48,265 nucleotides of DNA, from IMG/VR virus record IMGVR_UViG_3300005613_000103, positions 1-48,265 of that record; one strand, written 5' to 3'. The notes below the pieces were generated by a model. That model worked only from the letters and a program-made list of their open reading frames with translations, was not told the DNA's origin and ran no database searches. Shown one piece after another: positions 2,089 to 35,482 of the stretch. Every line of letters starts with the position of its first letter. Position 1 is the stretch's first letter. Source of the DNA: a virus. A program made the translations under genes and the position numbers.

Positions 2089-3663
2089 TTAGCGCAGAAC
2101 TCCAGCCAACTTGGCCAGCTCTCGCACCGACACTCCTCCGATGACGCTGTCTTCGACGATGGACTCCTGCCCACCACCTCCGACGTCTTCCACCATCCGA
2201 AGAGCCCGACTTCGCCCACTGCTTCCCTCGATCCCCTGACGAATACGGCTGTACTCATCGGACACCGGATTGGCTGCCGTGAACGCCTCAACGAGCTTGT
2301 CGACGGACTCTTTGGTGTCCGGCTTGCTCTCGTTGAGAAACTTCCTCAGCTTGTTGCGATGCGGATGATCCGCAATCTTGCGCTCGACATAGGCACGCAC
2401 ACCGAAATTCTTCCCGATGCTGAGTGCCTGGTCCCTCTCCTCGGAGAGCTTCTGGATCATGATCTCCATCTGAGAGATTCGCTCCTCGTACTGATGCTTG
2501 ACCACGTCCTCTTCGGCCAGCGCATCGGAAATCTCCGACACACGGTCCTTCAAGGCGTCGAGCGCATCGTACTCGTTGACGTCTCCCAGCATCTCCATGA
2601 TCTGGTCAGCTCGGTCGTTGTCAGAGAGTTCCCTCTCCAGGTACAGATGGAATCCCAGCTCCTTGGCGATCTCCGCCATCTCCTGGTTCTCCGCGTCCTG
2701 TTCGAGAATCCTCTCGTCCAACTCGGCGATTTTCGCCTGAGCCTCGGAGAGCTTCTTGCGCAAACTCATGATCTCCGTGTTCTCGTCCTCTTCGAACAAG
2801 AAAGGAGCCACGATCTCTTTGATCCGCTCGATGGCATTCGATGAACCGGCCACCTCCGGATCTTCGAGCAGTTCGCTACGAGCCTTCGCAACAGCTTCCT
2901 CTTGGAGTTTCTCTGCCTCCTGCCGAAGCCGCTCTGTGAATTCCTCTCGTAGGGCATCCCGTGCATGCTCACGAGCCTCCAGTTCGATTTCATCTCGAAC
3001 TTCGCTCGTGATCTGCTCGACCAGCTCGGGATTCTCTTTCCTCAATGCGTCCATGTCCATGCTGGTCTCCTTATTCTCCACGACGAAATTGGGGTGAGCC
3101 CCCGCATTTGCCGGATCAGCAACAACGTCCCATGTGACGAGCTTGTAGTCCTCCTGTACGACGTCTTCTCCCTTGGGATTCGAGACTACCGAACCGAACC
3201 CCCTGCTCGACACGCCAAGCCTTCCACCAGCCCTGGCAATCGCCAGCGCCTGGTCTCCGTTGATCGTGCCAGGGATGAACTCCAGCGTACCCACCATCTC
3301 GCCGTCCTCCGCGATGTTCACATCGGTAACGAAATGGCTCACACGCGAAAGCTTGGTCTTCCCGTCGCCAGGATGATCTAGCTCGCCAAACACCTGCCTA
3401 CCCTTCATCGACTCTGAGATCCTGCCGATCTCGCGAGCCATGATGTTCCTCGGGTAAAGACGCTTGTTGGCTGTGGCCTTGTCGACCCAGCCAAACCGCC
3501 CCTTCAGGTACGGACGCTTGCCTTCCTCTCCCTCGTGAAGGTCTTCGGGCTTGAACTCCAGAATGCAAACGTCCTCCAGAAGCTCCGTCCCCTCTGGGAC
3601 CTGAACCTCCTGAACCGCCTGCTCCTGGAACTCGGCTGGACGCCTTTTGTTCTTGCCCTTCAT
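2089..3663 (-). CDS. Prohead protease fused to scaffold (gp21 + gp22-like)
   Basis: The N-terminal ~190 residues are a T4 gp21-type serine protease (MEROPS S80-like): FGELDHP at about 92-98 supplies a likely catalytic His, RVSHFV follows at 107-112, and GVSSRGFG at 150-157 supplies the nucleophile Ser. From about residue 200 to the end the protein is a long Glu/Lys-rich coiled coil (DALRKENPELVEQ onward), as expected of a core scaffold such as gp22. In T4 these are separate genes; here one 524-residue frame holds both. T4 gp21 cuts after (L/I)-x-E, and sites of that form are abundant in neighbouring products. It lies between the acidic core protein and the capsid gene. The start at 3663 has AGGTAA upstream. 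Confidence 0.88.
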   Translation of the reverse strand: MKGKNKRRPAEFQEQAVQEVQVPEGTELLEDVCILEFKPEDLHEGEEGKRPYLKGRFGWVDKATANKRLYPRNIMAREIGRISESMKGRQVFGELDHPGDGKTKLSRVSHFVTDVNIAEDGEMVGTLEFIPGTINGDQALAIARAGGRLGVSSRGFGSVVSNPKGEDVVQEDYKLVTWDVVADPANAGAHPNFVVENKETSMDMDALRKENPELVEQITSEVRDEIELEAREHARDALREEFTERLRQEAEKLQEEAVAKARSELLEDPEVAGSSNAIERIKEIVAPFLFEEDENTEIMSLRKKLSEAQAKIAELDERILEQDAENQEMAEIAKELGFHLYLERELSDNDRADQIMEMLGDVNEYDALDALKDRVSEISDALAEEDVVKHQYEERISQMEIMIQKLSEERDQALSIGKNFGVRAYVERKIADHPHRNKLRKFLNESKPDTKESVDKLVEAFTAANPVSDEYSRIRQGIEGSSGRSRALRMVEDVGGGGQESIVEDSVIGGVSVRELAKLAGVLR

Positions 3664-3671
3664 CCGTTTAC

Positions 3672-4778
3672 CTATGCGCCCTTCTTCTTGCCCTTGTAGC
3701 CCTTGCCAGCCATGCGCTTTGCAGCCAAGGCACCCTTGTTGATCTTCTGTCCTGGTGCCACAACACCGGCTTTGACGAGCTTGAGGTAGCTCAAGAGACC
3801 CTCTTTGTTGCGCACGTCCTTGCGCATACCAACTTGGGCCTTGGTGTTTTGCCTGCCGTACCTGGACCTCCCCTTCACGGACACTGCCTTTGTCAGAAGC
3901 TTGCGACCCTGACTCTTCTTGCCCTTGGGAGCACCCTTGGCCTCATCGAGATCCTCGTCCTCGTCGAGATCCTCGTCGTCCTCGTCGTCCTCGGGATCCT
4001 CGTCGTCCTCGGGATCCTCGTCGTCCTCGGCCAAGAGACCGAAGGCGTCGAGAGCCTCAGCGACGTCTTCCATCGCCTCGTCAAGTGCCTCTTCGAGATC
4101 CTCGTCCTCTTCCGGAGTCAGGGCTCCGCCCATCTCCTCCATCTCTCTGAGAATCGACTCGGCAACAATCGAAAGATCGAGAACCTCGCTGGCCACATCA
4201 TCCTTGTCCTCGTCGAGAGCACGCATGGCGAGCAGCTCACCGAGATCCGCGATGTAGTTGAACGCCTCGACATACTCGTCAAAGCGGCTCTTCGGATCGC
4301 GGTCGATGGACTCGGCCAGCTCGGACAGCTCATCCATGATCCCCTCGCTGAGGGTGCCAGTATCCGGAGCCTCAACGTCAGACATCACACGACGAACACG
4401 CGCTCCGCTCGCCTTGGGGGCACGGGAGAGCATCTTCTGATGCCGCTTCCACGCAGACGTCTTGCGCTGCTGCTTGCGCTTCCGCGCAATTTTGCCCTTG
4501 TGAGCCTTGTAATACTGCTTCGACAGCTTGCGCGACTTGGCAGTGCCCTTCTTCATGCGCATCACACGCATGCTCTCGTCCACCTCGTCGTCACTGTCAT
4601 CATCGTCGCCTGCCAGATCGCTCAGGTAGGCTTCCTCGAAGTCTTCCTCCTCGTCATCCTCGAAGAAATCCGCCTCTTCGCCCTCCTCCAGCACTCCCAT
4701 GCCGCTGAGCGATCTACGGATTTCATTGTCGGACAATCCCAACCTCTGGAGGTCTTCTTCGAGTGGTCGAACTGTCAT
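3672..4778 (-). CDS. Acidic/basic low-complexity prohead core-type protein
   Basis: This 368-residue protein has four zones: an acidic N terminus (FFEDDEEEDFEEAYLSD), a Lys/Arg-rich segment at about 95-135, a helical acidic middle, a run of Asp/Glu repeats (DDEDPEDDEDPEDDED), and a basic C terminus ending KGYKGKKKGA. The composition and the place between portal and protease recall T4 gp67/gp68, the prohead core proteins that are cut to peptides during maturation. DEDLDEAKG contains an L-D-E site and MGVLEEGEE an L-E-E site. The start has a strong GGAGG. Assignment rests on position and composition, not on sequence similarity I can recognise. Confidence 0.7.
   Translation of the reverse strand: MTVRPLEEDLQRLGLSDNEIRRSLSGMGVLEEGEEADFFEDDEEEDFEEAYLSDLAGDDDDSDDEVDESMRVMRMKKGTAKSRKLSKQYYKAHKGKIARKRKQQRKTSAWKRHQKMLSRAPKASGARVRRVMSDVEAPDTGTLSEGIMDELSELAESIDRDPKSRFDEYVEAFNYIADLGELLAMRALDEDKDDVASEVLDLSIVAESILREMEEMGGALTPEEDEDLEEALDEAMEDVAEALDAFGLLAEDDEDPEDDEDPEDDEDDEDLDEDEDLDEAKGAPKGKKSQGRKLLTKAVSVKGRSRYGRQNTKAQVGMRKDVRNKEGLLSYLKLVKAGVVAPGQKINKGALAAKRMAGKGYKGKKKGA
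3972..4029 (-). repeat. Short tandem repeat coding Asp/Glu tract
   Basis: A GATCCTCGTCGTCCTCGG unit (plus strand) is repeated in tandem with small variation and encodes the DDEDPEDDEDPEDDED tract of the core-type protein. It is a coding low-complexity repeat. Confidence 0.7.
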
Positions 4779-4806: not shown

Positions 4807-5715
4807 CTAAGCGATGGCTTGCGCAACCTTGCGGACAAACCGGCCCCCAAGGTCAAAGTCTCTGTATCTCAGAGCTATTTCATCGTGTACCTTCGCCCCG
4901 CACAACACGCAACCTCCGTCGCGCACCATACGAATCGCTGCGGACACAGACTCGACAACTTCCCCAAGGTGCTCCATGTAGTCTGTCGCATACGAGTCAA
5001 ATTGCGACAAAATAGCGTCATCGTCCTCGTCGCGCATCTCTGTGTTCGAAGACGTCAAGCTATCATGAGACTCGTGGACCCGCGACAGCATCTCGCCAAG
5101 CCTGCCCTCTAGAGAAATCAGGTTCTCAACGACAACATCACGGACGCCATCGTCGATCTCATCATCATCCTCCTCGAACAGCTCACCAAAAAGAGGGCGA
5201 ATGGTCAGCTCAAGGTTCCCGTAGTCAGCATCCCAGGCATACTCCCCGATCTGCAACTTGTGCTCGTGGATAACCTTCTTCCAAATGCGACCACGGGAAA
5301 ACAACTGCCCCAGACTCTCTCTCACTTGCTCCAGCGGAGAAGACGTCAAAGCCGGATGCAAAGACATCAACCCCCTCATGCTGTCAGCAAGCATGGTGCC
5401 CTCTGTAAATGCATCGACTCCGCGACTCACAACGTCATCCTCGGACAAAGTCTCAACACTGATTCGCTTCGGCTTGCCAAGCCTCACAATGCCATCATCG
5501 ATCACATAGTTGGCAGAGTGAAAAATTCCGTCCTCGTTCAACACTATCACCCGATCAGGATAGGTCGCAAACAGAACAGACTCGCCGCCAAATGCACCCT
5601 GGTTTTCAGCGACGGCTCGATCCAAGGTCGACAGGATCTCCTCGTATGAACCATCCTGCAACTGCCCCAGAACCTTCGCCTCGACGAACACCGCTTTGTG
5701 CCTCTTGTGGCTCAT
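4807..5715 (-). CDS. Unknown head-region protein
   Basis: A 302-residue protein starting MSHKRHKAVF. I chose the ATG at 5715 because it has GGAGGA 3-4 bases upstream and lies below a good promoter; the frame opens 14 residues earlier without a ribosome binding site. It has an acidic cluster (LFEEDDDEIDDG), a Cys pair CVLCG near the C terminus, and no membrane segment. It is the first gene of a likely transcription unit running on through the core protein, protease-scaffold and capsid genes, so a role in head assembly is plausible. I do not recognise a family. Confidence 0.75.
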   Translation of the reverse strand: MSHKRHKAVFVEAKVLGQLQDGSYEEILSTLDRAVAENQGAFGGESVLFATYPDRVIVLNEDGIFHSANYVIDDGIVRLGKPKRISVETLSEDDVVSRGVDAFTEGTMLADSMRGLMSLHPALTSSPLEQVRESLGQLFSRGRIWKKVIHEHKLQIGEYAWDADYGNLELTIRPLFGELFEEDDDEIDDGVRDVVVENLISLEGRLGEMLSRVHESHDSLTSSNTEMRDEDDDAILSQFDSYATDYMEHLGEVVESVSAAIRMVRDGGCVLCGAKVHDEIALRYRDFDLGGRFVRKVAQAIA

Positions 5716-5756
5716 GCTTCCTCCATGTAGAAGCCTCAATCCACCTCCGTGATACA

Positions 5757-5785
5757 ATTACCCGGCGAACTCGTGATCATGTCAA
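5757..5785 (-). promoter_or_regulatory. Sigma70-like promoter for the capsid operon
   Basis: On the minus strand TTGACA (5785-5780) is followed after exactly 17 bases by GGTAAT (5762-5757). It lies in the 150-base gap after the portal gene, about 40 bases before the GGAGGA-ATG of the next gene, and would drive the core, protease-scaffold and capsid genes. Confidence 0.6.
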
Positions 5786-5865: not shown

Positions 5866-8679
5866 TCACCAGGCAACACCAGACGTCGCTCTGGCAATCT
5901 CCCGAATAAGCATCTGAGTCTCACGGAGCTGTGTTCCCAACTTGCTATCACGCTTCTCCATCTCACGACGGATCGCCTCAAGCGCTGCTTTCTCATCGGC
6001 ACGATCACCGTCAAACAACTCCCTCTCACTGATCCCCCGGGCAGCCGGAGTCTCGACAGACTCGAAACCACCAGTCGGGCCTGCCATCTTCTGCTCTTCC
6101 TTCTTCTGCTTCGTGATCTCAGCAATCTCGTCATCACTGAGCCCATAGACATTGCTCAGCAGAAAATACGACGACACGTGACGCTCCATCATCGACGCCA
6201 AATCAGCACGCGCTCGACGCACTTCCATCTGGCCAAGCTCAAAGATGGCACTCGGCACAGTCATGTTGATCTTGAAATCAACAGCCATCGGATCAATCTT
6301 CCTGGCAGCGAGATGAACCCTGGCCACCTTGCGCATCCCGTTGATGAACTCGTTCTGCACACGGAGCACAGTTTTTGCAAACCTGACGTCTTCCTGACTG
6401 TTGTGAACCACGACACCCTGCCCAATCGCAAAGTTGTGATACCCCTCAACGGTCAGATCGTAAGTGTCAATCACCGGACCAGGACGGACGCTGACCACCT
6501 TGTGGTTACGCCCCGCCCGTGAAGATCGATAGGCCGCATCCCTCATGACACTGGAAGCCATGTATTCGCCAGCAAACAGGCGATACGAGATCCCATGCTG
6601 AGAAAGCACCCTGTTAATCAGCGCCTCACTGTAACCAGACCACTTGACCAGCTGCTTCTTACTCTTACAGCGATACTCTCTCGCGACCCTGATCAGATGC
6701 TCGATGGTCGCATCACTTCGCCACCTGCTGTTCTTCTCGCCAGCCGTATCAGGAGCTGTTCCGTCCTCGATTCTGTCAACCATTATGGCCGACATCTTCT
6801 CCCTGAACCCATCTCCCCTTGAAAGCCTCATGGCTCCGCCGGGATCAGACCACTGCTCCTTCATCTGCCTGGACTTTAGATCCCTGTGTTCATCAGAATG
6901 GACCCAGTCCCAAAACTTGGAACCAGGACGCTTGCTCATGGCAGACGCCTTGGCAATGCTCTCCTTGGCCTCATCCGTCTTCAGCCAAGCAGCCTGTGCA
7001 GCCTTGCGCTTCTCGATGACATCCGGGCGACCGATGGTCTTCTCAGCATGCTCAGCGTGAAGCTTGCGATGATCGTCCCATGCCATGATCTCCAGATTCT
7101 CCGGCCTGTTGTCACGCTTGTCGAAGTTCACATGGTGCCGGACGTTGCCCTTCTCGACTTCCTCAAACAACGTGTCGGTCACTACCCGATGGGTCATCCC
7201 CCAGGAGTCGTCACCAGGATGATAAACCTCCTCGTATCCCCTGAGAGAACCCTCCGAGTCACGCCGATACAAAGGCATCAACGAATCACCAGCCGCAAGC
7301 TCCTGAGCCTCACAGTACGAACCATCCCGCCTCATGACAGGATGATCCGGCGTGCATGTCAGCACCTCACCGTTATCCAGCTCAACCTCGACCGTTTCCG
7401 CCTGACGTCTCGTGACCCTGGCGTTCTTGCCAAGCCCAGGAACCACATTGTTGTTCTCATCTATCGAGTACAGCCAGAAAGGATCGTCCCGCTTGGATAG
7501 CTCAGCTATCGTCGGCTCAGTGCCGTCGAGCAACGGAATCGGCGTGTCACCAGCAAGACACAACGTCGCCTTGCTGGGCATGTTCTCGTCGTACCCCAGG
7601 TAGGCTCTCGGCACCTTCAATGCAGCGTAGAGCTTGTATAGAAAATACTGAACATCCTCGACTTGCTGGTACGATGGTCCATTGAGCACGTCAACACGTG
7701 TCTTCTCTTGACCATCACGCATCCCAAGAAAGAAGTCCTCATCAAACGACAGAGGGTTGAACCTCATGTCCAACTTGCCCGTCTTGGGGTTCACAAATTT
7801 CTTCTTCTTGATCCGGTTCTTCACATTCTGAATCGCACGCTCAGCCTCCTCCCGGGGGAGGTTGCCCACGTCGATGTAAAACGCATACCTGCTGGGGCTT
7901 CTCGTCAGCTTATAGACGAGCACCGCATCCTCAAGCAGCATCAGACGTCGCCAGATCCACCGGGCAGGCTCAGCGATGGACCACCCGTACATCGACTCCC
8001 TGTTCTTGGATCGCAGACGCATATGAGTCACGCGCCAATCCTCGAACACAGCCGAGTCACCCTGTGGACTCACAGCGCTCCCGGACTTCGTCTTCATCTG
8101 CTCGAACTGCTGCTCGTTCACCTCCATGTTCGACGAAAAAGACTGCACAACCCCAAGGAAATCGCCGCGCTTACTCTCAACCCTTCGGCATGTCGCCGGT
8201 GGAAGATAATTCAGCTCCTGGACACCCTTGTCTCCGATAACGATCTCCTCAAAATCGTTTCCGTACTTGCACAGTGTTCTGATTATCTCCCAGGCATTTT
8301 GATCTATTTTTAGCCTCTTATGAAAGACGTCTGTGAGATCGTCACACACGTCCTGGTCCTGGCACTCAACCCACAACACGTGCTTGTTCTCGCTGTCCAT
8401 CTGGGAAGAGTCGTCTGAATATATATCCAGGCTGCTCGTGATGTCTGGATATTCATCCATCTCCTCATAATCGGCATAGCGATGAAGCAACCGCTTATCG
8501 AGCCCCAGGACATCGCCAATTCCACCGACACCCATCGTGTCAACGTTCCCAAGGCCAATCCCCATACCCATCTGCGCTCGCGCCAGATCCTTGGTAGACA
8601 CAGCCAGCTCAGAGTTCTGCTTTTCTCTGGAGAAGACACGCCGGATAAAATCAGTGGCAACGGATGTCAGTTTTGCCAT
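5866..8679 (-). CDS. Portal protein, T4 gp20-like, interrupted by an intein
   Basis: The dodecameric portal forms the DNA channel at the head vertex and binds the terminase. The exteins (residues 1-373 and 761-937, 550 in total, close to T4 gp20 at 524) carry gp20-type segments: DEYPDITSSLDIYSDD, YVLVYKLTRSPSR-like DAVLVYKLTRSPSRYAFYID, VPRAYLGYDENMPSKATL and, after the intein, SQEDVRFAKTV. The intein occupies residues 374-760 and splits the strongly conserved KATL/SQEDVRF junction. Upstream on the same strand are an internal protein and a polyprotein. The start has GGAGAG at suitable spacing. Confidence 0.92.
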   Translation of the reverse strand: MAKLTSVATDFIRRVFSREKQNSELAVSTKDLARAQMGMGIGLGNVDTMGVGGIGDVLGLDKRLLHRYADYEEMDEYPDITSSLDIYSDDSSQMDSENKHVLWVECQDQDVCDDLTDVFHKRLKIDQNAWEIIRTLCKYGNDFEEIVIGDKGVQELNYLPPATCRRVESKRGDFLGVVQSFSSNMEVNEQQFEQMKTKSGSAVSPQGDSAVFEDWRVTHMRLRSKNRESMYGWSIAEPARWIWRRLMLLEDAVLVYKLTRSPSRYAFYIDVGNLPREEAERAIQNVKNRIKKKKFVNPKTGKLDMRFNPLSFDEDFFLGMRDGQEKTRVDVLNGPSYQQVEDVQYFLYKLYAALKVPRAYLGYDENMPSKATLCLAGDTPIPLLDGTEPTIAELSKRDDPFWLYSIDENNNVVPGLGKNARVTRRQAETVEVELDNGEVLTCTPDHPVMRRDGSYCEAQELAAGDSLMPLYRRDSEGSLRGYEEVYHPGDDSWGMTHRVVTDTLFEEVEKGNVRHHVNFDKRDNRPENLEIMAWDDHRKLHAEHAEKTIGRPDVIEKRKAAQAAWLKTDEAKESIAKASAMSKRPGSKFWDWVHSDEHRDLKSRQMKEQWSDPGGAMRLSRGDGFREKMSAIMVDRIEDGTAPDTAGEKNSRWRSDATIEHLIRVAREYRCKSKKQLVKWSGYSEALINRVLSQHGISYRLFAGEYMASSVMRDAAYRSSRAGRNHKVVSVRPGPVIDTYDLTVEGYHNFAIGQGVVVHNSQEDVRFAKTVLRVQNEFINGMRKVARVHLAARKIDPMAVDFKINMTVPSAIFELGQMEVRRARADLASMMERHVSSYFLLSNVYGLSDDEIAEITKQKKEEQKMAGPTGGFESVETPAARGISERELFDGDRADEKAALEAIRREMEKRDSKLGTQLRETQMLIREIARATSGVAW
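6400..7560 (-). mobile_element. Intein with HNH homing endonuclease in the portal gene
   Basis: A 387-residue intein begins with Cys (CLAGDTPIPLLDG, block A) and ends with VVVHN before Ser+1 of the C-extein. Block B-like CTPDHPVMRRDG and block F/G DTYDLTVEGYHNFAI complete the splicing domain. An HNH endonuclease lies inside: NVRHHVNFDKRDNRPENLEIM, preceded by THRVV and followed by DDHRKLHAEH, then a C-terminal helix-turn-helix-like DNA-binding part (SKKQLVKWSGYSEALINRVL). All expected splicing residues are present (Cys1, TxxH-like TPDH, terminal His-Asn, Ser+1), so splicing is expected. It is clearly related to the intein in the large terminase. Confidence 0.9.
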
Positions 8680-8682
8680 CCT

Positions 8683-9558
8683 CTACTCTCCAACCTTCAA
8701 CCGAGACGCAGTCGATGAAAGTTCCCCGGATTTGATACCCTTGATCGCCTTCACCGTGGTAGCCGACCCAAGCCCCTTGCCCTTTTTGAGCATGGCATCC
8801 CAAAGGGGGTTCTCTTTGTCACCACGAATCTTGAACCCCAAAAAATAGATGTCATCCCCTGAATCCCCTGGCTCGATCTCGAACCATATCTCCGAACCAC
8901 CCTCCGCACTGGACGGTCTTCCACCACCGTTGAACGTGTACTTTTTCTCAGTCTTTTTCGCGACAGACGCAGCGATCGACTTTCCAACAGCCCCGGCAGC
9001 CTTGGTTGCTGGCCCCCAACGACCAAAGTCCCCACCAATGACGCTCGCCTCGTCCACTGCCATGGACTCAGCTACGGCACGCGCTGCACGAGAGACGTCA
9101 TCGTCAACATGGGACTCAACCGCAGCAGGCTTCCTGCGAACTGGCTCGTCGTCATCATCATCGTCGTCGTCGTCGCAACCACCCTCGCCCAGCTCAAACG
9201 CCATGAGCATCTTCTCCAGGGTGTCCATTTCTTCGTCGCCACCCTCGGACATCTCATCGTCAGAGTCATCATCCTCTGACTCAGCCGCCTGCAACACGGA
9301 CTTGGCCGCCTCCAGGGGATCAACTCCACCAGCATAATACTGAGTCCAGTCGTACCCCGGGAACAGCTCCCCAGACGTCATGCCGGTGTTGTCCTCCAGA
9401 TACCGGTCAACAGCCTTCATCCAATCCGACAGCTTCTGGCTCTCCTCGTCGACAACCTTCTTCCTCATCTCTTTTTTCTTGCTGCCCCTCGATGACTTCT
9501 TGCAACCCTCCATCACCGAATCCCTGATCTCTCGAATCACATCCAAACGACGAGTCAT
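8683..9558 (-). CDS. Acidic internal head-region protein upstream of portal
   Basis: A 291-residue protein ending 3 bases before the portal start. It has a basic N terminus (KKSSRGSKKKEMRKK), a middle with long acid runs (SEDDDSDDEMSEGGDEEMD, then a run of nine Asp), and a more ordered C-terminal third with WFEIEPGDSGDDIYFLGFKI. FELGEGG just before the Asp run matches the L-x-E protease site seen in the neighbouring polyprotein, so it may be cut into a basic/acidic leader and a packaged C-terminal domain. The family is unknown to me. The start has GGGAGG at good spacing. Confidence 0.75.
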   Translation of the reverse strand: MTRRLDVIREIRDSVMEGCKKSSRGSKKKEMRKKVVDEESQKLSDWMKAVDRYLEDNTGMTSGELFPGYDWTQYYAGGVDPLEAAKSVLQAAESEDDDSDDEMSEGGDEEMDTLEKMLMAFELGEGGCDDDDDDDDDEPVRRKPAAVESHVDDDVSRAARAVAESMAVDEASVIGGDFGRWGPATKAAGAVGKSIAASVAKKTEKKYTFNGGGRPSSAEGGSEIWFEIEPGDSGDDIYFLGFKIRGDKENPLWDAMLKKGKGLGSATTVKAIKGIKSGELSSTASRLKVGE

Positions 9559-9590: not shown

Positions 9591-12500
9591 TCAAACAGAA
9601 AACTTATCCTTGACCATCTTGACGACCATCTGAGCCCTCCTCGCAGCATCGGCACCACGGATCGACCTCAATATCCCAAGCCTCTTCTTCATCTCCTCGT
9701 CACTGTCAGCCAGGAAAACCTCGAAAAACACAGAATCAATCGTCATGCCTGCGAGCCACGAAACAACCGTAGGGATCGCATCCTTCTTGAGCGCCTGAAT
9801 CCACGGGACCTCTTTGAGATCCCTGGCCAGTTCGGCGGTCGACCGGTAGACCTTCTGTTTGGCCTCGCCGATCAGGTCGTCGCGCATCTGACGAACAGCA
9901 TCCAGCTCGACGTCCTCTGCGAACTTCTTCCCGAAAAGCTTGCTCGCGATGCTCTTGCCCTTCTTGGTAAAGACAACAACATCGCCCTTGCCATCAGAAC
10001 TCCACTTGACCTTGGCTAAGCCCTTCTTGGAAAGCTCAACCCGGGCTTCCGTCGAGGAGGCACCCCCCTTGTATCCCTTGGTCGTCGACAGATCGTTGAA
10101 CAACCTCTTGGCCGCATCAGACAGCCCCTCATAGGCTGACAGCTGAGTCGGCGTGAGAGCCTTCTTGTTGAGATCGTAGTAGCCCTCTTCCAGCTCGACG
10201 TCCTCTTGTGCGAGGTAGTCCAACCAAGCAACACCACTTCTCTTGAACTTCGGATACAGCTCAGTGACCCTCGGTCTCTTATCGACATCAAAGAAACCAC
10301 TCAGCGCCCTGGTCGCCACTTTAAGAGCCTCAAGATTGATCCTGCTCCCCGTCTCGTACATCGAGGGGGAAGCCTGGTGATGAGAGTAATCAGCCGGAAC
10401 ACCAGACGTCACATGAACCTCACCGTAGTTGGCGCGATCCATCTGGCCAAGATCCCTCACAGCGACATACCCACCACCCATCCGGCCATCATTTCTGAAG
10501 ATCATGGAGCCCTTCTGAGTGTCCAAGAAGTCAAAACCAGCCTGGAGAAGCGCTCTCTTGATGAAAGGAAAAGTCTTCTTCGGGTCTAGCCCCCTGCGGT
10601 TCCTGGTCGTTTCATCCAGCTCGACATCTTCGTTGAGCTTGTTCACAACAGCATCGATGTTCTTCTGCCAGGAGTTCTTGACCCCGACAATCTTCAGCAG
10701 AGAAGCCTTGTGTCCGTTACTGACAAAGGACTCACGCTCGTCCTTGACCGCGTCCTTGTCTCTATCTCCAAACTCAACGCTCCACTTCCCACTCGGAGAA
10801 ACCTTGGAAAGCAGAACGTAGTATCCATACTTCGCCTCGCTCAGCTCGACGTCTTCCCCCAGCCAGTTCTTCGGTGCCGCCTTCTTGATCGCACGCTGGA
10901 TAGTCTGCGCCGCCTTGCTGCCCAGATCGTTGAAGTAGATCTTCCCCCTATCCCACTGCGCAATCCCTCGGCCACCGATCCACTCGCCGTCCAGACGCTT
11001 GCCATCAGTGGATAGCTTCTTGCCGTCCATCGGCTTCTTATCCAGGAATGCGTCAATAACCTTCTTAGTCCCAGCGTTCATAGAACTCTCCATGACCCCA
11101 TCAACAGCCTCTGGGATCATGCCCTTGCTGTCCTTGATGGTCTTCTGGACCCGCTTGAAATAGTTCCCGAAGTGCTTGACAATCTGGTCCGGTGTCCCTG
11201 ACTTCTTGCGCCAGCCAAACTTGACACTGCCGAACGCCATGTGAGACCCAGGCTCAGGCTTGACCAACAATTTCCCACCCTGGATCAGCTCAGCCTGGAG
11301 CTTGCCTTGCAACGTATCGTCTTCATTTACACCGTAGACAAAGAACTTCTGGAACGCCCTGTCGTTCATCCATATCTTATGCGGCACCTTGGAGATGTCC
11401 TTCTCCAGAGCCGTCACAATGTAGATCGCCTTTTCCCCAAGACTCTTCTGCACCTCGCATGTCAGAACAGCCCCCGGAGGCATGTACCTCTCGATCTCTT
11501 TCCTGATCCTGACAGCCAGCTTCTGTGCCTCGCCAGACGGGTTGTCAGCCTTGGAGCGAGCGAGAACATTGTAGACGTCCCCCTCGTCCAGGTCGAAGTC
11601 TTCCCCAAAAGAAGCCTTCTTCGCGTCGCTGTGGCTCAACCAATTTAGGTACTTCGGCGGTTGCTTCATCACGCCACCACCGTCAAATTTGACTTGAACC
11701 GACTTCTTGCTCACCTTGATGATCTTCCCGTAATCACGATAGATAACGGAATACACCCGATCCCCAACCTTCAGCTCCGACGTGTCCTTGATCTCGTTGC
11801 TCTTCTTGGGATACGCACCCTCGCCCAGATCGACGTCTTCGTGTTGGGCAGAAAGATTCTCCATGTCCCAACCCTTGATCCACGCTTTCATCACCTGCAC
11901 AGGGGTCGTGCCTTGTCCTTTTTTCTTGAGCATCGGGATGAGACCCTTGTCAGCCGCTGGCACCCGCTTCTTTCCAGCAAGGAACGCCTCGCGACCCATC
12001 TTGAACGCCTTCATCTCGTGCTTGCCAAACATCCGCGCTTCGTCCAGCTCGACATCCTCACGAACAGCTTGCGCACCCTTCAGCACGGCAAAATACTGCA
12101 TCGGCATCCCATCCTCCGTTCGCTCGCTGAAGATGTGATAAACCGGCCAGTGGACGTCATTGGCAATGGACCTGGCTGACTTGGGGTTCTCGACAGCAAA
12201 CAGGTAAACCTGCGCCAGTGGAGGAACCTCCTCACTCTCGACCCCCAGACTGTGGGCATACGCGACACCAATGAAGATCGAATTGTTGGGCATCATTATC
12301 GCATTGTAGAAGTCGCTGCGCTTCATCCCGCGCTTCCCTTTTCCAGGGAACATCGGCGGTTTCTCGAAAACCCTTCCGGATTTAAGCTTCGCACCCAGCC
12401 GCTTTGCCAACTTCTCATTGTACGCAGACGGACTTCTGCCTCGCCCCTGCCAGTGGATGACACCTTCCTCTTCTATGACGTCCTCCCCAAGCTTCATCCC

Positions 12501-12869
12501 GCGCAAGGCCGCGCCCACTTCTCGACTCACCGTGTTGCTCACCGCTTCGAGGTGGTCCAAGTATTCCTTGGTTTCCCAGGTCCCCTCAAATGCTGGCAGG
12601 GAAATCTTCTTGTCATTGCCGCCGCAGGTCACCACAACAGAATCGATCACGTTGTAGCCAATCGAGGGGTACGGAGCCCAGCCGATGGACACAGAGACAT
12701 CTCCTCCGACGCTCTCCCACCGTCTGGCACTCTCGGAAAAAGATCTGGCCGGGACAAGCCCCATATCACCAAGGATTTTCTCGACACGATCCCAGAACGC
12801 CGCATCAACATACTCGTTGTTCCAAATCCTGCTCTCTTCAATCCTCGGCGCTGCCCAGTCGATTCCCAT
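9591..12869 (-). CDS. Multi-module polyprotein with repeated EDVELxE protease-site linkers
   Basis: This 1,092-residue protein is built of unlike modules joined by a recurring linker. The linkers are near residues 129-134 (EDVIEE), 271-277 (EDVELDE), 344-350 (EDVDLGE), 423-429 (EDFDLDE), 672-678 (EDVELSE), 748-753 (EDVELDE), 889-895 (EDVELEE) and 985-990 (EDVELD, then Ala); DLIGE at 998-1002 is a further site. All but the last EDVELD end in (L/I)-x-E, the T4 gp21 cut pattern, and usually a small residue follows. The modules between are about 65 to 245 residues; one (351-422) looks like an SH3/KOW-type domain (KVGDRVYSVIYRDYGKIIKV), others are basic and DNA-binding in character. It lies between terminase and portal. 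I infer an internal head polyprotein cut by the prohead protease; module functions are unknown. Confidence 0.8.
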   Translation of the reverse strand: MGIDWAAPRIEESRIWNNEYVDAAFWDRVEKILGDMGLVPARSFSESARRWESVGGDVSVSIGWAPYPSIGYNVIDSVVVTCGGNDKKISLPAFEGTWETKEYLDHLEAVSNTVSREVGAALRGMKLGEDVIEEEGVIHWQGRGRSPSAYNEKLAKRLGAKLKSGRVFEKPPMFPGKGKRGMKRSDFYNAIMMPNNSIFIGVAYAHSLGVESEEVPPLAQVYLFAVENPKSARSIANDVHWPVYHIFSERTEDGMPMQYFAVLKGAQAVREDVELDEARMFGKHEMKAFKMGREAFLAGKKRVPAADKGLIPMLKKKGQGTTPVQVMKAWIKGWDMENLSAQHEDVDLGEGAYPKKSNEIKDTSELKVGDRVYSVIYRDYGKIIKVSKKSVQVKFDGGGVMKQPPKYLNWLSHSDAKKASFGEDFDLDEGDVYNVLARSKADNPSGEAQKLAVRIRKEIERYMPPGAVLTCEVQKSLGEKAIYIVTALEKDISKVPHKIWMNDRAFQKFFVYGVNEDDTLQGKLQAELIQGGKLLVKPEPGSHMAFGSVKFGWRKKSGTPDQIVKHFGNYFKRVQKTIKDSKGMIPEAVDGVMESSMNAGTKKVIDAFLDKKPMDGKKLSTDGKRLDGEWIGGRGIAQWDRGKIYFNDLGSKAAQTIQRAIKKAAPKNWLGEDVELSEAKYGYYVLLSKVSPSGKWSVEFGDRDKDAVKDERESFVSNGHKASLLKIVGVKNSWQKNIDAVVNKLNEDVELDETTRNRRGLDPKKTFPFIKRALLQAGFDFLDTQKGSMIFRNDGRMGGGYVAVRDLGQMDRANYGEVHVTSGVPADYSHHQASPSMYETGSRINLEALKVATRALSGFFDVDKRPRVTELYPKFKRSGVAWLDYLAQEDVELEEGYYDLNKKALTPTQLSAYEGLSDAAKRLFNDLSTTKGYKGGASSTEARVELSKKGLAKVKWSSDGKGDVVVFTKKGKSIASKLFGKKFAEDVELDAVRQMRDDLIGEAKQKVYRSTAELARDLKEVPWIQALKKDAIPTVVSWLAGMTIDSVFFEVFLADSDEEMKKRLGILRSIRGADAARRAQMVVKMVKDKFSV

Positions 12870-12880
12870 TTTCCTCTCCT

Positions 12881-15800
12881 TTACCCGGTAAAAATCACCG
12901 GACCTGCTCTGTCGCTTGCCAACTGCGGTGCCTCATCGCCAGACCGCTTCATGGTTCTCCTGATCCACTCACTGTCCGCCGAGTCATCTTCGTGCTCACT
13001 GATCCCAATCTCCAGGGGCGTCCCGTATGCCAAGTTGTTCGACAGCGAATACGCCACACCCGCAAGACTATCACTGACATCTTTGCTATTATGAACAAAC
13101 ACACCAGCACAGAGTGCAAAGTTATGATGCTCATCAACCTCTAAGTCGTACACGGGAACTGGCTCATCAAGGGAGACAGGAATCACGGCTCTGACCTTGT
13201 GGTTCTCTCCACCGTGTGCCTCCACGAATGCTCCCCAGTCTGAAAAACCGTTCTCCTTGAGCACGCGAACAACGACGTTTCTGCTACACCCGATCCTCCG
13301 TGCTGCACCGTTCGTCGTCTTCTCGTCACTCGCCTCAACGAGGCTCTCGATTGTGACGTCGCCGCGAAACCAATGAGAACCTCTCGATCTCTCAGCCGCC
13401 AACGCGCTTCGCTCCTCACTCGTCATCCTGTGCATCGTCTTGCGCATTGACTCAGAGTGCACGCGCCTGCCATCCTCGCTCAAATTGAACGCCTGCAAAG
13501 CCTGCGCTACCTTCTTGCTGTATTCCTCGTCATCCCTGTGCCTCTCCTCGGCATGGACTCGCGAATGCACCGACTTGTCCCTGACTTCGAGGTTGTCTGG
13601 ACTGTTGTTGGTCTTGTTTCCGTCGATGTGATGAACTATCGAGCCACTGGGAACACCACCCAGTAACTCATCCGCAACCATGTGGTGAGTGAGAGCACGA
13701 TGCGCATCCCTGTTCGATACCCGTTCATACCCACCGTTCACCGGCCATGCCCTCTTGATCGACATCAAACGATCTACACCGGGTACGAGGTCCTTGGCCT
13801 CCTTGTAGGTCCCGTCCCTCAACATCCATCGGTGATCAGGGGTGCAGCGAGCGACAGCGCCACTGTCGAGCACAACATCAACAAGGTCGCAGGTCGTCTT
13901 TGTCATCCGCCCTCTTGCCATCCCAGGAACTATCCTTCCATCCAGGGTTGAAGAGTAGACCCATGCCTCACGGCCATCGAGTTCAGCCATTGTCGGCATC
14001 GTTCCGTCAAGCAGAGGAACCCTCGTATCGCCAGTGAAGCACCCAGACTCCGGATGATCAATCTTTCGCACCTTCTCGTTGCGCTCAAGAGCCTTCAACT
14101 CATTCAGCAAAATGGGATAATCGTAGAAACTCAGCCGACCCTCATAGATCGCACCCTTCAGCGCATCGTAGCCATCCGTGTTCTTGTCCACGGAGAAGAT
14201 CTCAGCCTTCATCCCCTGCTGCCTGAATTTCTGCAACGATTCCGCAGACTGGAACGAGTCCATCGTTACACGGGTGATCGGAAATCCATGATGCATGAAC
14301 CCATAAACAAGACCCCGAATCGCACCAATGTCAATCTCCCCGTCAGGAGGCGGCTCAATCCTCAGCACGAGATCGACCTCGATCAATGGCGCAGTCTCCT
14401 TCATCGGCGTCCCGTCATCGAGTCTCCTTTCGACGTCTATATGATCAACCGTGTGAGCAATGCAGATCCCAGCCGGGTCTGTCTTCCCCAAGCTCAGATC
14501 GATGTGGACATGACGCTGAGCATGAGGGTGTCTCCTCGGCTCGACAACCTCCTCGTAGACCCCAGGTGCCACCCGCCTGCGCACGCGCCTGGAAATGGCT
14601 CTCCAGTCGATAGACGGACGGTCCCCTGTCTTCCAGGTCTCAGTCCTCAGCGGATGGAACAACGTCGGGTCAACAGCATGATCGATCCGCTCCGGCATCT
14701 GGAAGTACAAGGACACCGTCGAGGTAACCACACCACCGATGTCCCGGATGCTGTCCTCAAGGTTACGCTCAAAATCGCTGCGAAAATTCTCAGGCACGTG
14801 CAGGAATCTGCACCCCTGATCATACAGGCTATCACGCCCATCCTTGCCAATGCTCTCGTACTCGTGATCCGTGAGAATCTTGTGTTTTATCTCGTTAGCA
14901 CCAACCAGAACCCAGAACCTCTCCTTCGAGAACCTCTCCGGTGGCTGGACGTCATAGAGTGCATAATCACGCACAAACATCGTCGGCTCATTTCGAGCCT
15001 GGACAATGCGCCTGTTCGTGAACGACTCCTTGTCCCTCGCCGACGACGACATGAAAAGCTTGCCAGGCAAACTGCCAGCTCGCTCATATCGAGACTTCAT
15101 CCTCCGCGTGATCGACGCATGAAGCATCTCGGCAAACGACTTCCCGCCAGAGAGCTTCTGACTGCTCCTCAGCGTGCTGCCCTCCAGGAACTCAGTCTCG
15201 TCAATGATGCCGCCGAAGACGTTCCTACCCAGCGCATCTGCCGAACGAGCAGATACAGCAATTACCCTGATGTTCTTCTCGCGATGGACCAGATCGGATG
15301 TGCTGATGTGGATGTCTTGCGAGTTGAAATACGGACTCGTCTCTATCATCCTCTTCACACCACCAAACGTCACCTCGCGAGCAAGCTTGTGGTCACGGTT
15401 GAAACAGACCAGAACAATCTCAGAGTCCGGCATCAACCCAAATGTGGCCTGTGGGTCAGTGAGAGCACACAGTAAGTAAAACTCCCTGATGAGGCCCATG
15501 TTGCAAAACGTCGTCTTGCCTGAACCAATCGACCCCGTGATGATGATCTCGTTGTACTTCCCAGCATCAAGTTCGATCAGATCTGACTTCCATCTTGGGA
15601 ACAAGTTCTTACCTGACCGGCCAAGATAATCATCGCTGATCAGGAACTCCTCAACAGGAACTATCTGCTCGTCGTAGTCAGCAGAGGCAAGAGCATGCCA
15701 GTTCTGAGAGTAGGAGATAAGCTCTTCCTGGCTGTCAAAATCACCGTCGCCTCGAAGGTGCCCCAGGACGTCAAGCTCATCGAGAACACAGACGAACGCC

Positions 15801-15907
15801 CTCTTCTCCTCCGGCGACATCTGAGAAAGACGGTGCCTGAACCACGATCGCTTCTCGGCAAGCGTCCGCTGCGAGATGTTCCTTCCATCTTTCGTCGTGA
15901 CAATCAT
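12881..15907 (-). CDS. Terminase large subunit (TerL), interrupted by an intein
   Basis: The packaging motor ATPase and headful nuclease. Walker A is GSIGSGKTT at 125-133 and Walker B GGIIDETE at 232-239. The RNase H-like nuclease carries HVHIDLSLG (Asp 470), VTMDSF (Asp 550) and, after the intein, SKDVSDS (Asp 943/946). The intein spans residues 623-940 and sits in the nuclease domain at HPESG/SKDVSD, a site commonly invaded in phage terminases. Without it the protein is 690 residues, usual for large-phage TerL. It starts with an ATGA overlap with the gene upstream, so the two are translationally coupled. Confidence 0.93.
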   Translation of the reverse strand: MIVTTKDGRNISQRTLAEKRSWFRHRLSQMSPEEKRAFVCVLDELDVLGHLRGDGDFDSQEELISYSQNWHALASADYDEQIVPVEEFLISDDYLGRSGKNLFPRWKSDLIELDAGKYNEIIITGSIGSGKTTFCNMGLIREFYLLCALTDPQATFGLMPDSEIVLVCFNRDHKLAREVTFGGVKRMIETSPYFNSQDIHISTSDLVHREKNIRVIAVSARSADALGRNVFGGIIDETEFLEGSTLRSSQKLSGGKSFAEMLHASITRRMKSRYERAGSLPGKLFMSSSARDKESFTNRRIVQARNEPTMFVRDYALYDVQPPERFSKERFWVLVGANEIKHKILTDHEYESIGKDGRDSLYDQGCRFLHVPENFRSDFERNLEDSIRDIGGVVTSTVSLYFQMPERIDHAVDPTLFHPLRTETWKTGDRPSIDWRAISRRVRRRVAPGVYEEVVEPRRHPHAQRHVHIDLSLGKTDPAGICIAHTVDHIDVERRLDDGTPMKETAPLIEVDLVLRIEPPPDGEIDIGAIRGLVYGFMHHGFPITRVTMDSFQSAESLQKFRQQGMKAEIFSVDKNTDGYDALKGAIYEGRLSFYDYPILLNELKALERNEKVRKIDHPESGCFTGDTRVPLLDGTMPTMAELDGREAWVYSSTLDGRIVPGMARGRMTKTTCDLVDVVLDSGAVARCTPDHRWMLRDGTYKEAKDLVPGVDRLMSIKRAWPVNGGYERVSNRDAHRALTHHMVADELLGGVPSGSIVHHIDGNKTNNSPDNLEVRDKSVHSRVHAEERHRDDEEYSKKVAQALQAFNLSEDGRRVHSESMRKTMHRMTSEERSALAAERSRGSHWFRGDVTIESLVEASDEKTTNGAARRIGCSRNVVVRVLKENGFSDWGAFVEAHGGENHKVRAVIPVSLDEPVPVYDLEVDEHHNFALCAGVFVHNSKDVSDSLAGVAYSLSNNLAYGTPLEIGISEHEDDSADSEWIRRTMKRSGDEAPQLASDRAGPVIFTG
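13088..14041 (-). mobile_element. Intein with HNH homing endonuclease in the terminase gene
   Basis: A 318-residue intein starts at Cys 623 (CFTGDTRVPLLDGTMPTMAEL) and ends VFVHN before Ser+1. Splicing blocks CTPDHRWMLRDG and PVYDLEVDEHHNFAL are present. An HNH endonuclease is inserted: HMVADELLG, IVHHIDGNKTNNSPDNLEV, then HSRVHAEERH, followed by a DNA-binding tail (RIGCSRNVVVRVLKENG). The block A segment and the domain order match the portal intein, so the two are paralogous, diverged copies in one genome. Splicing residues appear intact. Confidence 0.9.
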
Positions 15908-17549: not shown

Positions 17550-17873
17550 CTACCGACTCAGCAAGAAATCCGCCATCTCTTTGCCCTTGCGATACAGAAA
17601 TCCGGAGACCTTCTCACCCGGAAATGTGGCCAGCTTTCTTGGATCAAGATGCATCGACCGGGCACTCCCAAAAGCAACCTGATCCGAAGATGCGTAAATC
17701 GCCTGCGGCTTGAGCCAGATCCTCACACCATCCTTCGACGCATGCGGGATCTTGAGATTCGCTTTCACCGTCCATCCATTGTCATTCAGCATGTCGAGCA
17801 GCTCGCCCTGAGCCATGCCGTAAGTCATCTTCTTCTTGGCCTCTTCGATATACGAACGACGTCTGAGCCCCAT
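17550..17873 (-). CDS. Possible internal in-frame product with capsid tag
   Basis: An ATG at 17873 lies in frame inside the polyprotein and is preceded by GAGAGGAG with 7 bases spacing, a better ribosome binding site than many genes here. The 107-residue product would begin MGLRRRSYIEE, the same tag that starts the separate genes at 21932, 22547 and 23090. Either it is also made on its own, or it was once a separate gene that fused to the one upstream. The rest (KMTYGMAQGELLDMLNDNGW onward) is basic and globular; family not recognised. Confidence 0.5.
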   Translation of the reverse strand: MGLRRRSYIEEAKKKMTYGMAQGELLDMLNDNGWTVKANLKIPHASKDGVRIWLKPQAIYASSDQVAFGSARSMHLDPRKLATFPGEKVSGFLYRKGKEMADFLLSR

Positions 17874-20762
17874 GGAATCACTCCTCTCGACACCCTCGTG
17901 CCGCTTAATTTTCCCGCCCTTGAGGGCAAATTGCTTGAACCTCTCGCGCTGATCACGGCTCAGCTTTCTCCCCAGAACATACCAGGCGAACAACTCTGCA
18001 AAATCCTCTGCCGGGTTCTCACCACCATAGGAAGAAACAGACCGCACTGTTCCTGGCTCAACCGCCACAGGACCAGGCGGAGTTCCCGGCTTGCCAATCG
18101 GCCAGCCGCCAAAGTAAGAATCAAATCTCACCCGCTCTGCCTTGGTCATGTTCTTGTAGTACCAGCGGTGACCAAGCTCATGGACAATGATCCTGACCGC
18201 CTCCTCAGCCTGCGACCCACCGGCAGGAATTCCGAACATGTTCACCGTGTTCTTACCGATAACATAGTTGGCCGCAGCACGATACGTCGTCCCGCTCCCC
18301 TGCCCCTTGAACTCATACCCATCACCAGACGGATGTACCCTGATCGTCCCGTACCAAACCTTGTCAAAACCAGCACGCTTGAGCATCGCTTGCGCAGACG
18401 TCACAGCACGAACAAGCCAATGCATCTTCCCAGGGTCAATCGTCTTCTTCTTGTACTTCGCCAACGTGAGCACGTGGTACTTGTCGTTCGGAACGAAGTC
18501 GACGATGACCTTCATCTTCCCCACGCTGAACTCGGTGTCGACTCCTTGATCCTTCAGTGGATCATCCTGGGAATCGTCCGGGTTCCACTTGTTCACAAAC
18601 GCCGCGAGCCTGCGGAACATCTTCCCTGAGACAATCTTGTCGGCAGCCCGCATGGTATCGATGATGCCCTCCATCTCCGCATCGAGAGCATCCTTGTCAC
18701 CACTCCTTCCGAATTGAAGCTGATTCTCGACTCCCGGATGAATGTTCCTCTCCATGGAGTTCTTGTCGTAGATCGCCTTGTACCAAGTCTTCACCCGGGA
18801 GATCTTGTCGTAGATGACGTCGTCGACCTCCTCGAAGTCATGAGCGATATTGTTCTTCACATCAGCAACCGGATTGCCGGTGAGCTTGCGATCTATCTTC
18901 TCATCGCCGGACAAGGTGTGCGGCCACAGCCCCTTCTTGAGCCACATGTCCTTCTTGAGATCCATGAGGCTCTTACGAGCACCCTCAAGATACCGAATCG
19001 CCTCTTCGCCTGCCTTCTGCCCCCTGGCATCCTCGAACTTCTTGCCCTTCTCAACGATGCCCTTCCACCACTTCTTGATCCCGCCGAACCACTGCTTGTT
19101 CAGCTTCCATTTCTCTTCGGCCAGCAGCTCTCCACCGACGTCCCCTTCCTCGTCCTCCAACTTCAGTCGGGGGACAACCGACATCAGCACAGCTTTCACC
19201 TCTGGAAGCACCGCCCTCGGGCCATAGGACACCAGCAAACCCAACGCCTCACAGAACGCCTCTTCTGGATCTTTTGCCCCGTATCCAGTCACCGGCTTCA
19301 GCGTCACGTTGAAGATCGGGTTGCCCCCAGCCCGCAAATACTCCTGCGCCTTCTTCAACGAAAAAATGTCGAGCTGCCTGTATCGAGGGTCGTACACAAG
19401 CGTCTCGAACCGAAGATACGTAATCGGATCTCTGCGCTCGAACTCCCTCTCCTTACCCAACCATTTCCCTACGACGTCTCTCAGATCCAGATCGCCATGA
19501 GAACCCTTGATGAACAACGCCCATCTCTTCTGTGCAGCATCAGAAAGCGTCCTCCAGATCCGGTGACCCATCTCGTGAGCGATTACGTGACCAGTCTCAC
19601 TCGGCTTCCCGATCGTCCCCCACGGATTGACCTTGATGTGGTCATACTCATACGACGCAGAGGCCGCACTGCGCGCCTTGAAATCAAGGACAAACGGCAT
19701 CGTGTTTCTGAGCATCTCGGGATAGACCTTCGAAGCCCGCATCCTGTACCACTTCAGACCACGCTCGAAACCACGGACCACCTTCTCGCCAAACGCATCG
19801 TCACTGCTGTCCTTCAGCTGAACCTGGAACCCAGCGATAGACACGTTCTGCGGAGTGGACCCGATAACAATCGCACGCCCTCCACCACTGTTGAGCCCCG
19901 TGCGTTGCGACCATTGGGCCATATCATTCAGCCACTTCCACGCCTTCCGAGAATGCGCCCTCGTTCGCCTCTCCCACGATCTGAGATCACCAAGGAAACG
20001 CTCAAGTATCCTCTCATCTGTCCACCACCCAGTCTCGCGACCCCGGGCAAGATCCCTGTCATTCTGATCCCTGTAACTGGCCAGGGCATCACCGGGCGGA
20101 CTCCTCATGTCGCTGGAAAACTCCCACGCATCACTCATCGAACTGAGCAGGTATTTCGCGTCATGCTCGTTGACGTAGTCACCGCCGCTCGACTGAGCCC
20201 GAAGCCGATCCCCAATCTCCTGCTTGACCTTGTCCAGAGCACCCTCGAAATCCAAGCCCCACTTGATAACAGCTTTGCGCCATATCTCGTTCTCTCGAAT
20301 ATCCCTAATCTCGTGAAGCTTCTTGATGTTGCGCATCAGAACCAAAAAGTCCTTGCGCATCCTCTCGATCTTCTCCGTAGTCAAGAATTCTTGAGCCTCT
20401 CCCAGCAACTGGACGCGAATCTCAACAGCCTCTCTGAGACGTCTTCCACCAAGAGGTAGCGGCTCTGCCTGCATCGGTTCGCCGACCACAAACGAGCCCT
20501 CCCCGGTGTACTCCCCAAGCCACGGGAAAACCTCTTTGAAGGTCGATACAGAACCCACCTCCGGCGCGAGCTGTGGATAATTCCTCGGACCATCGTACCC
20601 TTCGAAACTTCTGATGGAGAACTCATTTGTGATCTTGAAATCGACCGTTGCCTCCATAGGGTTGATCGGCTGCCTCCTGCGCACAACAGCAAACCGCCCA
20701 TCGGTTGTAAACCACACACCGGAAGCAACGTTGTTCAGCTCAAGTTTCTTGTTCCTTGCCAT
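17550..20762 (-). CDS. Two-metallopeptidase polyprotein with internal protease sites and internal capsid tag
   Basis: A 1,070-residue protein; I take the ATG at 20762, which overlaps the preceding stop (TGATG) and has GGAG upstream. Residues 1-118 form an N-terminal domain ending RRLREAVEIRVQLLGE (L-G-E site at 120-122). Zincin domain 1 has HEMGH at 396-400 and a distal EEAFCE at about 500-505. ELLAE at 545-549 is a second site. Zincin domain 2 has HELGH at 861-865 with AEDFAELF at 918-925. MGLRRRSYIEE at 964-974 repeats the N-terminal tag of three neighbouring genes and precedes a 107-residue C-terminal domain. HExxH with a distal Glu is the zinc site of gluzincin-type peptidases. I infer packaged, protease-processed effector domains. 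Confidence 0.75.
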   Translation of the reverse strand: MARNKKLELNNVASGVWFTTDGRFAVVRRRQPINPMEATVDFKITNEFSIRSFEGYDGPRNYPQLAPEVGSVSTFKEVFPWLGEYTGEGSFVVGEPMQAEPLPLGGRRLREAVEIRVQLLGEAQEFLTTEKIERMRKDFLVLMRNIKKLHEIRDIRENEIWRKAVIKWGLDFEGALDKVKQEIGDRLRAQSSGGDYVNEHDAKYLLSSMSDAWEFSSDMRSPPGDALASYRDQNDRDLARGRETGWWTDERILERFLGDLRSWERRTRAHSRKAWKWLNDMAQWSQRTGLNSGGGRAIVIGSTPQNVSIAGFQVQLKDSSDDAFGEKVVRGFERGLKWYRMRASKVYPEMLRNTMPFVLDFKARSAASASYEYDHIKVNPWGTIGKPSETGHVIAHEMGHRIWRTLSDAAQKRWALFIKGSHGDLDLRDVVGKWLGKEREFERRDPITYLRFETLVYDPRYRQLDIFSLKKAQEYLRAGGNPIFNVTLKPVTGYGAKDPEEAFCEALGLLVSYGPRAVLPEVKAVLMSVVPRLKLEDEEGDVGGELLAEEKWKLNKQWFGGIKKWWKGIVEKGKKFEDARGQKAGEEAIRYLEGARKSLMDLKKDMWLKKGLWPHTLSGDEKIDRKLTGNPVADVKNNIAHDFEEVDDVIYDKISRVKTWYKAIYDKNSMERNIHPGVENQLQFGRSGDKDALDAEMEGIIDTMRAADKIVSGKMFRRLAAFVNKWNPDDSQDDPLKDQGVDTEFSVGKMKVIVDFVPNDKYHVLTLAKYKKKTIDPGKMHWLVRAVTSAQAMLKRAGFDKVWYGTIRVHPSGDGYEFKGQGSGTTYRAAANYVIGKNTVNMFGIPAGGSQAEEAVRIIVHELGHRWYYKNMTKAERVRFDSYFGGWPIGKPGTPPGPVAVEPGTVRSVSSYGGENPAEDFAELFAWYVLGRKLSRDQRERFKQFALKGGKIKRHEGVERSDSMGLRRRSYIEEAKKKMTYGMAQGELLDMLNDNGWTVKANLKIPHASKDGVRIWLKPQAIYASSDQVAFGSARSMHLDPRKLATFPGEKVSGFLYRKGKEMADFLLSR

Positions 20763-35469: not shown

Positions 35470-35482
35470 TGGTGTCTCCTCC

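Follow-up and report, generated by a model that had tools for sequence, protein, structure and literature searches.

A predicted polyprotein of linker-bounded modules in the head-gene block of a T4-like virus

The head-gene block and the 1,092-residue reading frame

The window analysed here, the whole 48,265-base stretch of virus record IMGVR_UViG_3300005613_000103, carries a T4-like head block. In order of transcription on the minus strand, where all window features given below lie, it encodes the terminase gp17, a 1,092-aa open reading frame (ORF), a 291-aa protein, the portal gp20, a 316-aa protein (4807–5757), an acidic core-like protein, the prohead protease and the major capsid protein gp23. 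The terminase gene (12881–15907), which contains an intein, is directly upstream of the long ORF, an order shared with the relative L280 described below. The portal gene (5866–8679), identified by sequence reading and by tblastn to T4-like portals, also contains an intein, and the two inteins resemble each other; several pieces match within the portal region of the clade relative L266. The first-pass annotation had placed the ORF next to the portal gene, and it is indeed near it, but the gene for the 291-aa protein (8683–9558) intervenes and the terminase flanks the other side. The acidic core-like protein (3672–4778) carries six (L/I)xE↓(A/G/S/T) sites, where 1.4 are expected (the arrow marks a predicted cut). 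The protease (2089–3663), a peptidase S77 of the gp21 type (PF03420, E 7e-15; PHROG 207, E 1e-40) with a long C-terminal scaffold-like part, is the predicted cutter of the long ORF's product. The gp23 gene (538–2061; PF07068, E 3.5e-60) has a predicted propeptide cut at ALTE82↓S83.

The long ORF (P0001), defined by its open frame and translation, occupies exactly the span 9591–12869 and the 1,092 residues initially reported. Its linkers start at residues 129 (EDVIEE), 271 (EDVELDE), 344 (EDVDLGE), 423 (EDFDLDE), 672 (EDVELSE), 747 (EDVELDE), 889 (EDVELEE) and 985 (EDVELDA). Eight EDVELxE linkers had been claimed; seven fit the consensus, and the eighth, EDVIEE at residues 129–134, is a variant form. 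The pattern E[DES][VF][ED][LI]x[EA] occurs seven times, far above shuffles of the same protein (mean 0.005, maximum 1 in 20,000 shuffles). The positions originally listed hold, with 747 for 748, but that list left out two further borders: a degenerate one at residues 585–594 (IPE↓A, VME↓S), backed by homologs of both flanking modules, and LIGE↓A at residue 1002, 11 residues past the linker EDVELDA. The N-terminal IEE↓S at residue 12 is a candidate for another. As had been noticed at the outset, the segments between linkers are unlike each other, and similarity is limited to the linkers themselves.

The motif (L/I)xE followed by A, G, S or T was found nine times in the protein (residues 10, 275, 348, 427, 585, 676, 751, 893 and 1000) against 2.3 expected (P 0.0004), and all nine sites lie at or near module borders. 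The earlier statement that nearly all linkers end in this way holds, with two deviating linkers: in EDVIEE↓E the P1' residue is not small, and EDVELDA↓V has Ala at P1 and may be dead. The border at residue 1002 belongs to a second type, VRQMRDDLIGE↓A (residues 992–1002; 9864–9896), termed CTS2, a leader or cut motif that recurs at the start of the 291-aa neighbour, within the polyprotein of the relative L001, in L083 and several times in L280. In L280 (1480–6513) the MRDELLG motif is twice followed by a basic peptide, CKTPGMKKRSKGKGRGLAKGKGRGPLGIP, of which L001 (7713–10895) has a single similar copy (CDTPGKK...); peptides of this kind are perhaps DNA-binding elements. A second cut at the first linker Glu (LxE↓D) was considered as a general feature and rejected, L/I being found two residues upstream in only 19%.

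These borders divide the chain as follows. A candidate N-terminal leader, MGIDWAAPRIEE↓S (residues 1–12; 12834–12869), is inferred from its IEE↓S site and its T4-leader-like length. Module W1 (13–134; 12468–12833) ends in the variant linker; its homolog opens the L280 polyprotein (E 5e-7) and likewise ends with a linker, EDVELDE↓A. Module W2 (135–277; 12039–12467) is delimited by its linker EDVELDE (12039–12059). Module W3 (278–350; 11820–12038; linker EDVDLGE, 11820–11840) has homologs in the L001 (9801–10016) and L253 polyproteins and belongs with PHROG 19203, whereas W4 (351–429; 11583–11819), also delimited by its linker (EDFDLDE, 11583–11603), is possibly SH3-like and gave only weak MSSS and ProQ_C matches. 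Module W5 (430–594; 11088–11582), which closes with IPE↓A (11109–11117) and VME↓S (11088–11096), matches PHROG 21515 and is 69% identical to the L001 module at residues 420–589. Module W6 (595–678; 10836–11087; linker EDVELSE, 10836–10856) matches module 2 of the marine polyprotein L157 edge to edge, and W7 (679–753; 10611–10835; linker EDVELDE, 10611–10631) corresponds to L001 module 104–174 and to a stand-alone phage gene. Modules W8 (754–895; 10185–10610) and W9 (896–991; 9897–10184) are delimited by EDVELEE (10185–10205) and EDVELDA (9897–9917), respectively. Beyond the CTS2 motif, W11 (1003–1092; 9594–9863) matches the start of L001 module 247–419 (E 2e-10).

Pfam returned no confident family for any window module. 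An assignment of W3 as ribosome modulation factor (RMF) was rejected, PF04957 scoring 13.2 bits against a cut-off of 27.9, and the module is RMF-like at most; a similar module in L114 scored 20.0 bits against the same cut-off. An AlphaFold2 model of the whole chain, built on a 4-row alignment, had a mean pLDDT of 43 and placed seven of the eight linkers in coil and one in helix, all at a confidence too low for locating borders; a model of W5 by itself reached a pLDDT of 42.

Linkers and modules in related viruses

A direct search of IMG/VR returned L001 (IMGVR_UViG_3300029267_004887) as the only near homolog of the full chain. Its polyprotein, 1,060 aa long with ten linkers, has four modules in common with the window (26–69% identical), which stand in the order 7, 11, 5, 3 in L001 vs 3, 5, 7, 11 in the window. 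Searching with the capsid protein led to seven clade relatives. Among these, IMGVR_UViG_3300017971_000265 (77.9 kb; L264 and L280) encodes a ~1,660-aa polyprotein immediately downstream of gp17, the position that the gene also has in the window, and its EDVELDE-type linkers have A or G at 12 of 12 P1' positions. Its capsid protein is 75% identical to that of the window, yet only module W1 is recognisable. Across polyproteins of differing module order, the borders of shared modules coincide with linkers. The clade polyproteins retain their linkers while modules are shuffled or replaced.

To define the wider family, IMG/VR was scanned for DNA encoding EDVELDE or EEVELDE and the frames were then read; the linker sample is thereby seeded and not phylogenetically independent. 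At least 51 ORFs with two or more linkers were found, counting the window and L001, and an all-against-all comparison of their modules gave a dense sharing network in which positions differ. In 126 distinct linkers among the matches listed, P1' was A in 57, G in 29, S in 10 and T in 2, that is, 98 of 126 or 78% against a background of 26%; the P1' residue had played no role in linker selection. The other 22% have I, K, V, E, N and others, and P2 was D or E in 90% of these 126 linkers. L-x-E was not found to be depleted inside the modules of the wider set (94 seen vs 59 expected), an excess that probably arises from a strict pattern overlooking variant linkers.

Where long contigs permit the test, the wider-family polyproteins are T4-like: among the matches listed, gp23 was present on six of six polyprotein contigs of at least 59 kb, compared with 8 of 24 other long contigs that match the pattern. 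Also among the matches listed, gp20 and gp21 are the immediate neighbours of the polyprotein gene in five loci; in three others it follows gp20 at the locus end, and in L076 and L084 it comes directly before gp21. The leaders of the marine relatives resemble the T4 targeting peptide (e.g. MKTFKELVSE↓V). A related short array with one EEIEIDE linker occurs in the cultured marine Methylophilales phage Melnitz (L245, 5779–7167), at another place. Tblastn of the marine polyprotein L116 against isolated phages gave no match, no W5 relatives were present in GTDB genome contigs, and pattern searches with W5 and W3 added only L253. On a 251-kb phage contig, a protein of L054 (861–1979) starts with MKNLFLLEDVELDE↓T and carries another EDVELDE close to the C-terminus; larger phages may therefore use the linker as a leader too.

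Two pairs of close relatives differ by single modules. L086 and L114 are 99.3–99.4% identical, and L114 has 180 additional bases that make up exactly one 60-aa module plus linker, the flanking matches overlapping by 15 bases at the linker. L164 and L176 are 98–99% identical and likewise differ by a single module, the matches here overlapping by 14 bases where the linker starts. Within each pair, the two sequences derive from different metagenomes; therefore, a shared assembly error is an unlikely explanation of these differences. Recombination between linker repeats would be the simplest route of module gain and loss.

Several modules also have counterparts outside polyproteins. The counterpart of W7 is a stand-alone gene of Mesorhizobium phage Lo5R7ANS, the start of which aligns with the predicted cut; that of W5 is a free-standing protein in Xanthomonas phage XaC1, and the PHROG matched by W3 is a 61-aa family. 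The last L001 module matches PHROG 9437 (98 aa), with homologs starting at the predicted cut, as well as genes in Sinorhizobium, Ochrobactrum, Vibrio and Pseudomonas phages. These matches suggest that the modules are autonomous proteins, several of them equivalent to stand-alone phage genes. Known families among the modules are few: a HicA toxin (L199), an HNH nuclease (L253), the RMF-like module below its cut-off and some DUFs. The HicA module of L199 (1939–6234, minus strand) sits between LTE↓M and EEVELEE↓G. PADLOC detected no defence protein in 45 polyproteins.

Predicted cleavage and packaging of the modules

The capsid protein offers an independent view of the protease site. When the gp23 N-termini of the window, L001, three marine phages, Melnitz, phiN3 and S-B64 were aligned, L-x-E↓(A/S/T) fell in one column in eight of eight proteins. 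In T4, gp21 cleaves behind the Glu of L/I-X-E and takes a 65-residue propeptide off gp23 (PMC9026906). Capsid and linker cut sites thus share one form, since both the aligned gp23 site and gp21 specificity agree with the linkers.

We consider it likely that the polyprotein strings together proteins that are packaged into the head and set free by the prohead protease. The sequence itself shows the linkers, the module borders, the shuffling, modules gained or lost at linkers, and a site in the capsid protein that matches; cleavage, packaging, injection and the recombination route are what we infer. In the proposed mechanism, the gene would encode about ten small head proteins, most of them basic, in a single polyprotein, and the chain would enter the prohead core, probably via the N-terminal leader and/or the leader-like peptide near the C-terminus. 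The gp21-type S77 protease would then cleave every linker, (E-D-V-E)-L-x-E↓A/G/S, on the C-terminal side of its final Glu, and the freed proteins of 8–18 kDa would stay with the packaged DNA and probably be injected as T4 internal proteins are. The linkers would act as a common adapter, serving both as protease site and as DNA homology patch for in-frame gain, loss and shuffling of modules. The initial proposal, in which the capsid protease divides one chain into separate proteins, is supported by the P1' bias, the gp23 site and the linker-bounded, shuffled modules, and also by two modules that begin, past the predicted cut, where their free-standing homologs begin. Furthermore, basic modules prevail (130 of 138; mean charge +7.5), which supports packaging because basic charge is expected of DNA-packed proteins; the internal proteins of T4 contact DNA via lysines (PMC3012670).

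As counterpoints to cleavage, cutting once per linker would keep an acidic tail of no evident use on every module, and a few linkers have an improper P1 or P1' residue. The chain might instead be a multidomain head protein that stays whole, its acidic linkers serving as flexible spacers or as tags that bind the core or portal and their match to the protease being incidental. Such a protein would be compatible with a 7-aa linker that is longer and more conserved than L-x-E requires, in which E-D-V-E may bind something. We nevertheless regard an uncut chain as improbable: A/G/S strongly prevail at P1', a position that the selection motif did not include, the cut site in the capsid protein is of identical form, and the differently built second motif, MRDxLIGE↓A, has the same ending.

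Slightly more weight, while still unlikely, can be given to a disposable assembly core comparable to T4 gp67, gp68 and gp22, in which the chain would be chopped by the protease, the pieces would exit the head and the modules would not be cargo. In marine T4-like loci the polyprotein gene indeed occupies T4's gp67/gp68 slot between portal and protease, and gp21 fragments gp67 and gp68 in T4; other core-like proteins of the window are also rich in L-x-E. The window gene, however, lies not at the gp20–gp21 position seen in marine relatives but between gp17 and the gene preceding gp20, and cultured T4-like relatives have nothing but small genes at the portal–protease locus. Moreover, gp67 and gp68 are single proteins of small size, most fragments of which are removed, whereas the polyproteins are long strings of modules. 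The predicted cut pieces, among them HicA and HNH modules, are whole units that recur as genes of their own in other phages, and their rapid turnover between conserved linkers fits cargo better than a structural core.

A third alternative, which we judge very improbable, is a polyvalent protein as defined by Iyer et al. 2017 (PMC5512222), i.e. a packaged multidomain effector whose domains are freed by an embedded metallopeptidase. The two would have in common many unlike domains, frequent proximity to head genes, probable delivery with the DNA and fast reshuffling, and the window does encode leader-bearing HExxH proteins (described below). However, polyvalent proteins combine a proposed embedded metallopeptidase with known enzyme domains (PMC5512222), whereas P0001 has no HExxH motif, no metallopeptidase Pfam match up to E 1 and no detected polyvalent domain family, and its uniform linkers fit the prohead protease.

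Comparison with known systems and other putatively packaged proteins

The preferred reading, that of chained cargo released by the prohead protease, has its closest parallel in the internal proteins of T4, which carry a short targeting leader, are cut by gp21, are packed with the DNA and are diverse from phage to phage; IPI inhibits a host restriction enzyme (PMC3012670, PMC9026906). Like T4 IPI-III and Alt (PMC9026906, PMC3012670), the window proteins would be small and diverse, would be processed by an S77 protease behind the Glu of L/I-x-E and would keep a targeting or cut peptide. In T4, however, each protein has one gene and its own N-terminal leader, whereas here about ten proteins (up to about 17) would be joined in one chain by a standard acidic linker. 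In phiKZ and SPN3US, a gp21-related protease likewise makes multiple cuts after Glu, as predicted here, but the additional sites belong to long propeptides, which are discarded, and give no series of mature proteins (PMC10052503, PMC5694885).

RNA viruses and retroviruses are well known for making polyproteins that a protease of their own cuts. No phage polyprotein cut by a prohead or maturation protease was found described in the full text searched, subscription journals lying mostly outside its scope. The literature on phage heads that was found concerns removed propeptides, single targeted proteins and one proposed self-cutting multidomain protein (PMC9026906, PMC3012670, PMC10052503, PMC5694885, PMC5512222). 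The chances seem to us about even that T4-like phages own a widespread, undescribed cassette system in which the linker is both capsid-protease site and DNA exchange patch. Under such a system, a phage could load, release and renew its injected proteins by one-step in-frame swaps, integron-like at the level of protein. If the predicted cleavage is true, modules bounded by E[E/D]VELDE would mark a general route to packaged or injected phage proteins, mostly uncharacterised ones that may act against the host; the linker would provide a natural adapter by which one gene could load T4-type heads with several proteins, and the family would be a test case for the in-frame shuffling of protein modules by phages.

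Single proteins of the window carry a different, basic leader, M-x-LRRRSYL-x-E, at 21900–21926, 22515–22541 and 23058–23084; a peptide of the LRRRSYL-x-E type is also present at 35482–35508, and one copy of the set is the variant FRRRSRLIE. In the 2.25 Mb of DNA compared, eight similar copies were found in L001 and four elsewhere, and LRRRSYL-x-E is probably a capsid targeting leader of the window phage clade. The phage therefore probably packages single as well as chained proteins. The polyprotein's own MGIDWAAPRIEE↓S fits the T4 leader in length and site, yet is unlike these other leaders (LRRRSYLxE), and the internal MRDDLIGE↓A peptide may serve as targeting leader in its place.

Among the leader-bearing proteins, that encoded at 22560–23090 has a ParB-like domain behind the leader LRRRSYLAE↓G. 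A 1,075-aa protein (17550–20777) has two HExxH motifs and an internal leader, SMGLRRRSYIEE↓A, of the LRRRSYL type (17841–17867), and a further leader-bearing protein (21099–21932) also contains HExxH. Despite weak Pfam matches, both are likely to be packaged metallopeptidases, as judged from these motifs. Elsewhere in the window, a predicted lipoprotein (41109–42251) has long Asp/Thr/Ser-rich repeats (DTDSDADTD) and Cys-containing segments, which is unusual for a phage and may hint at the host group.
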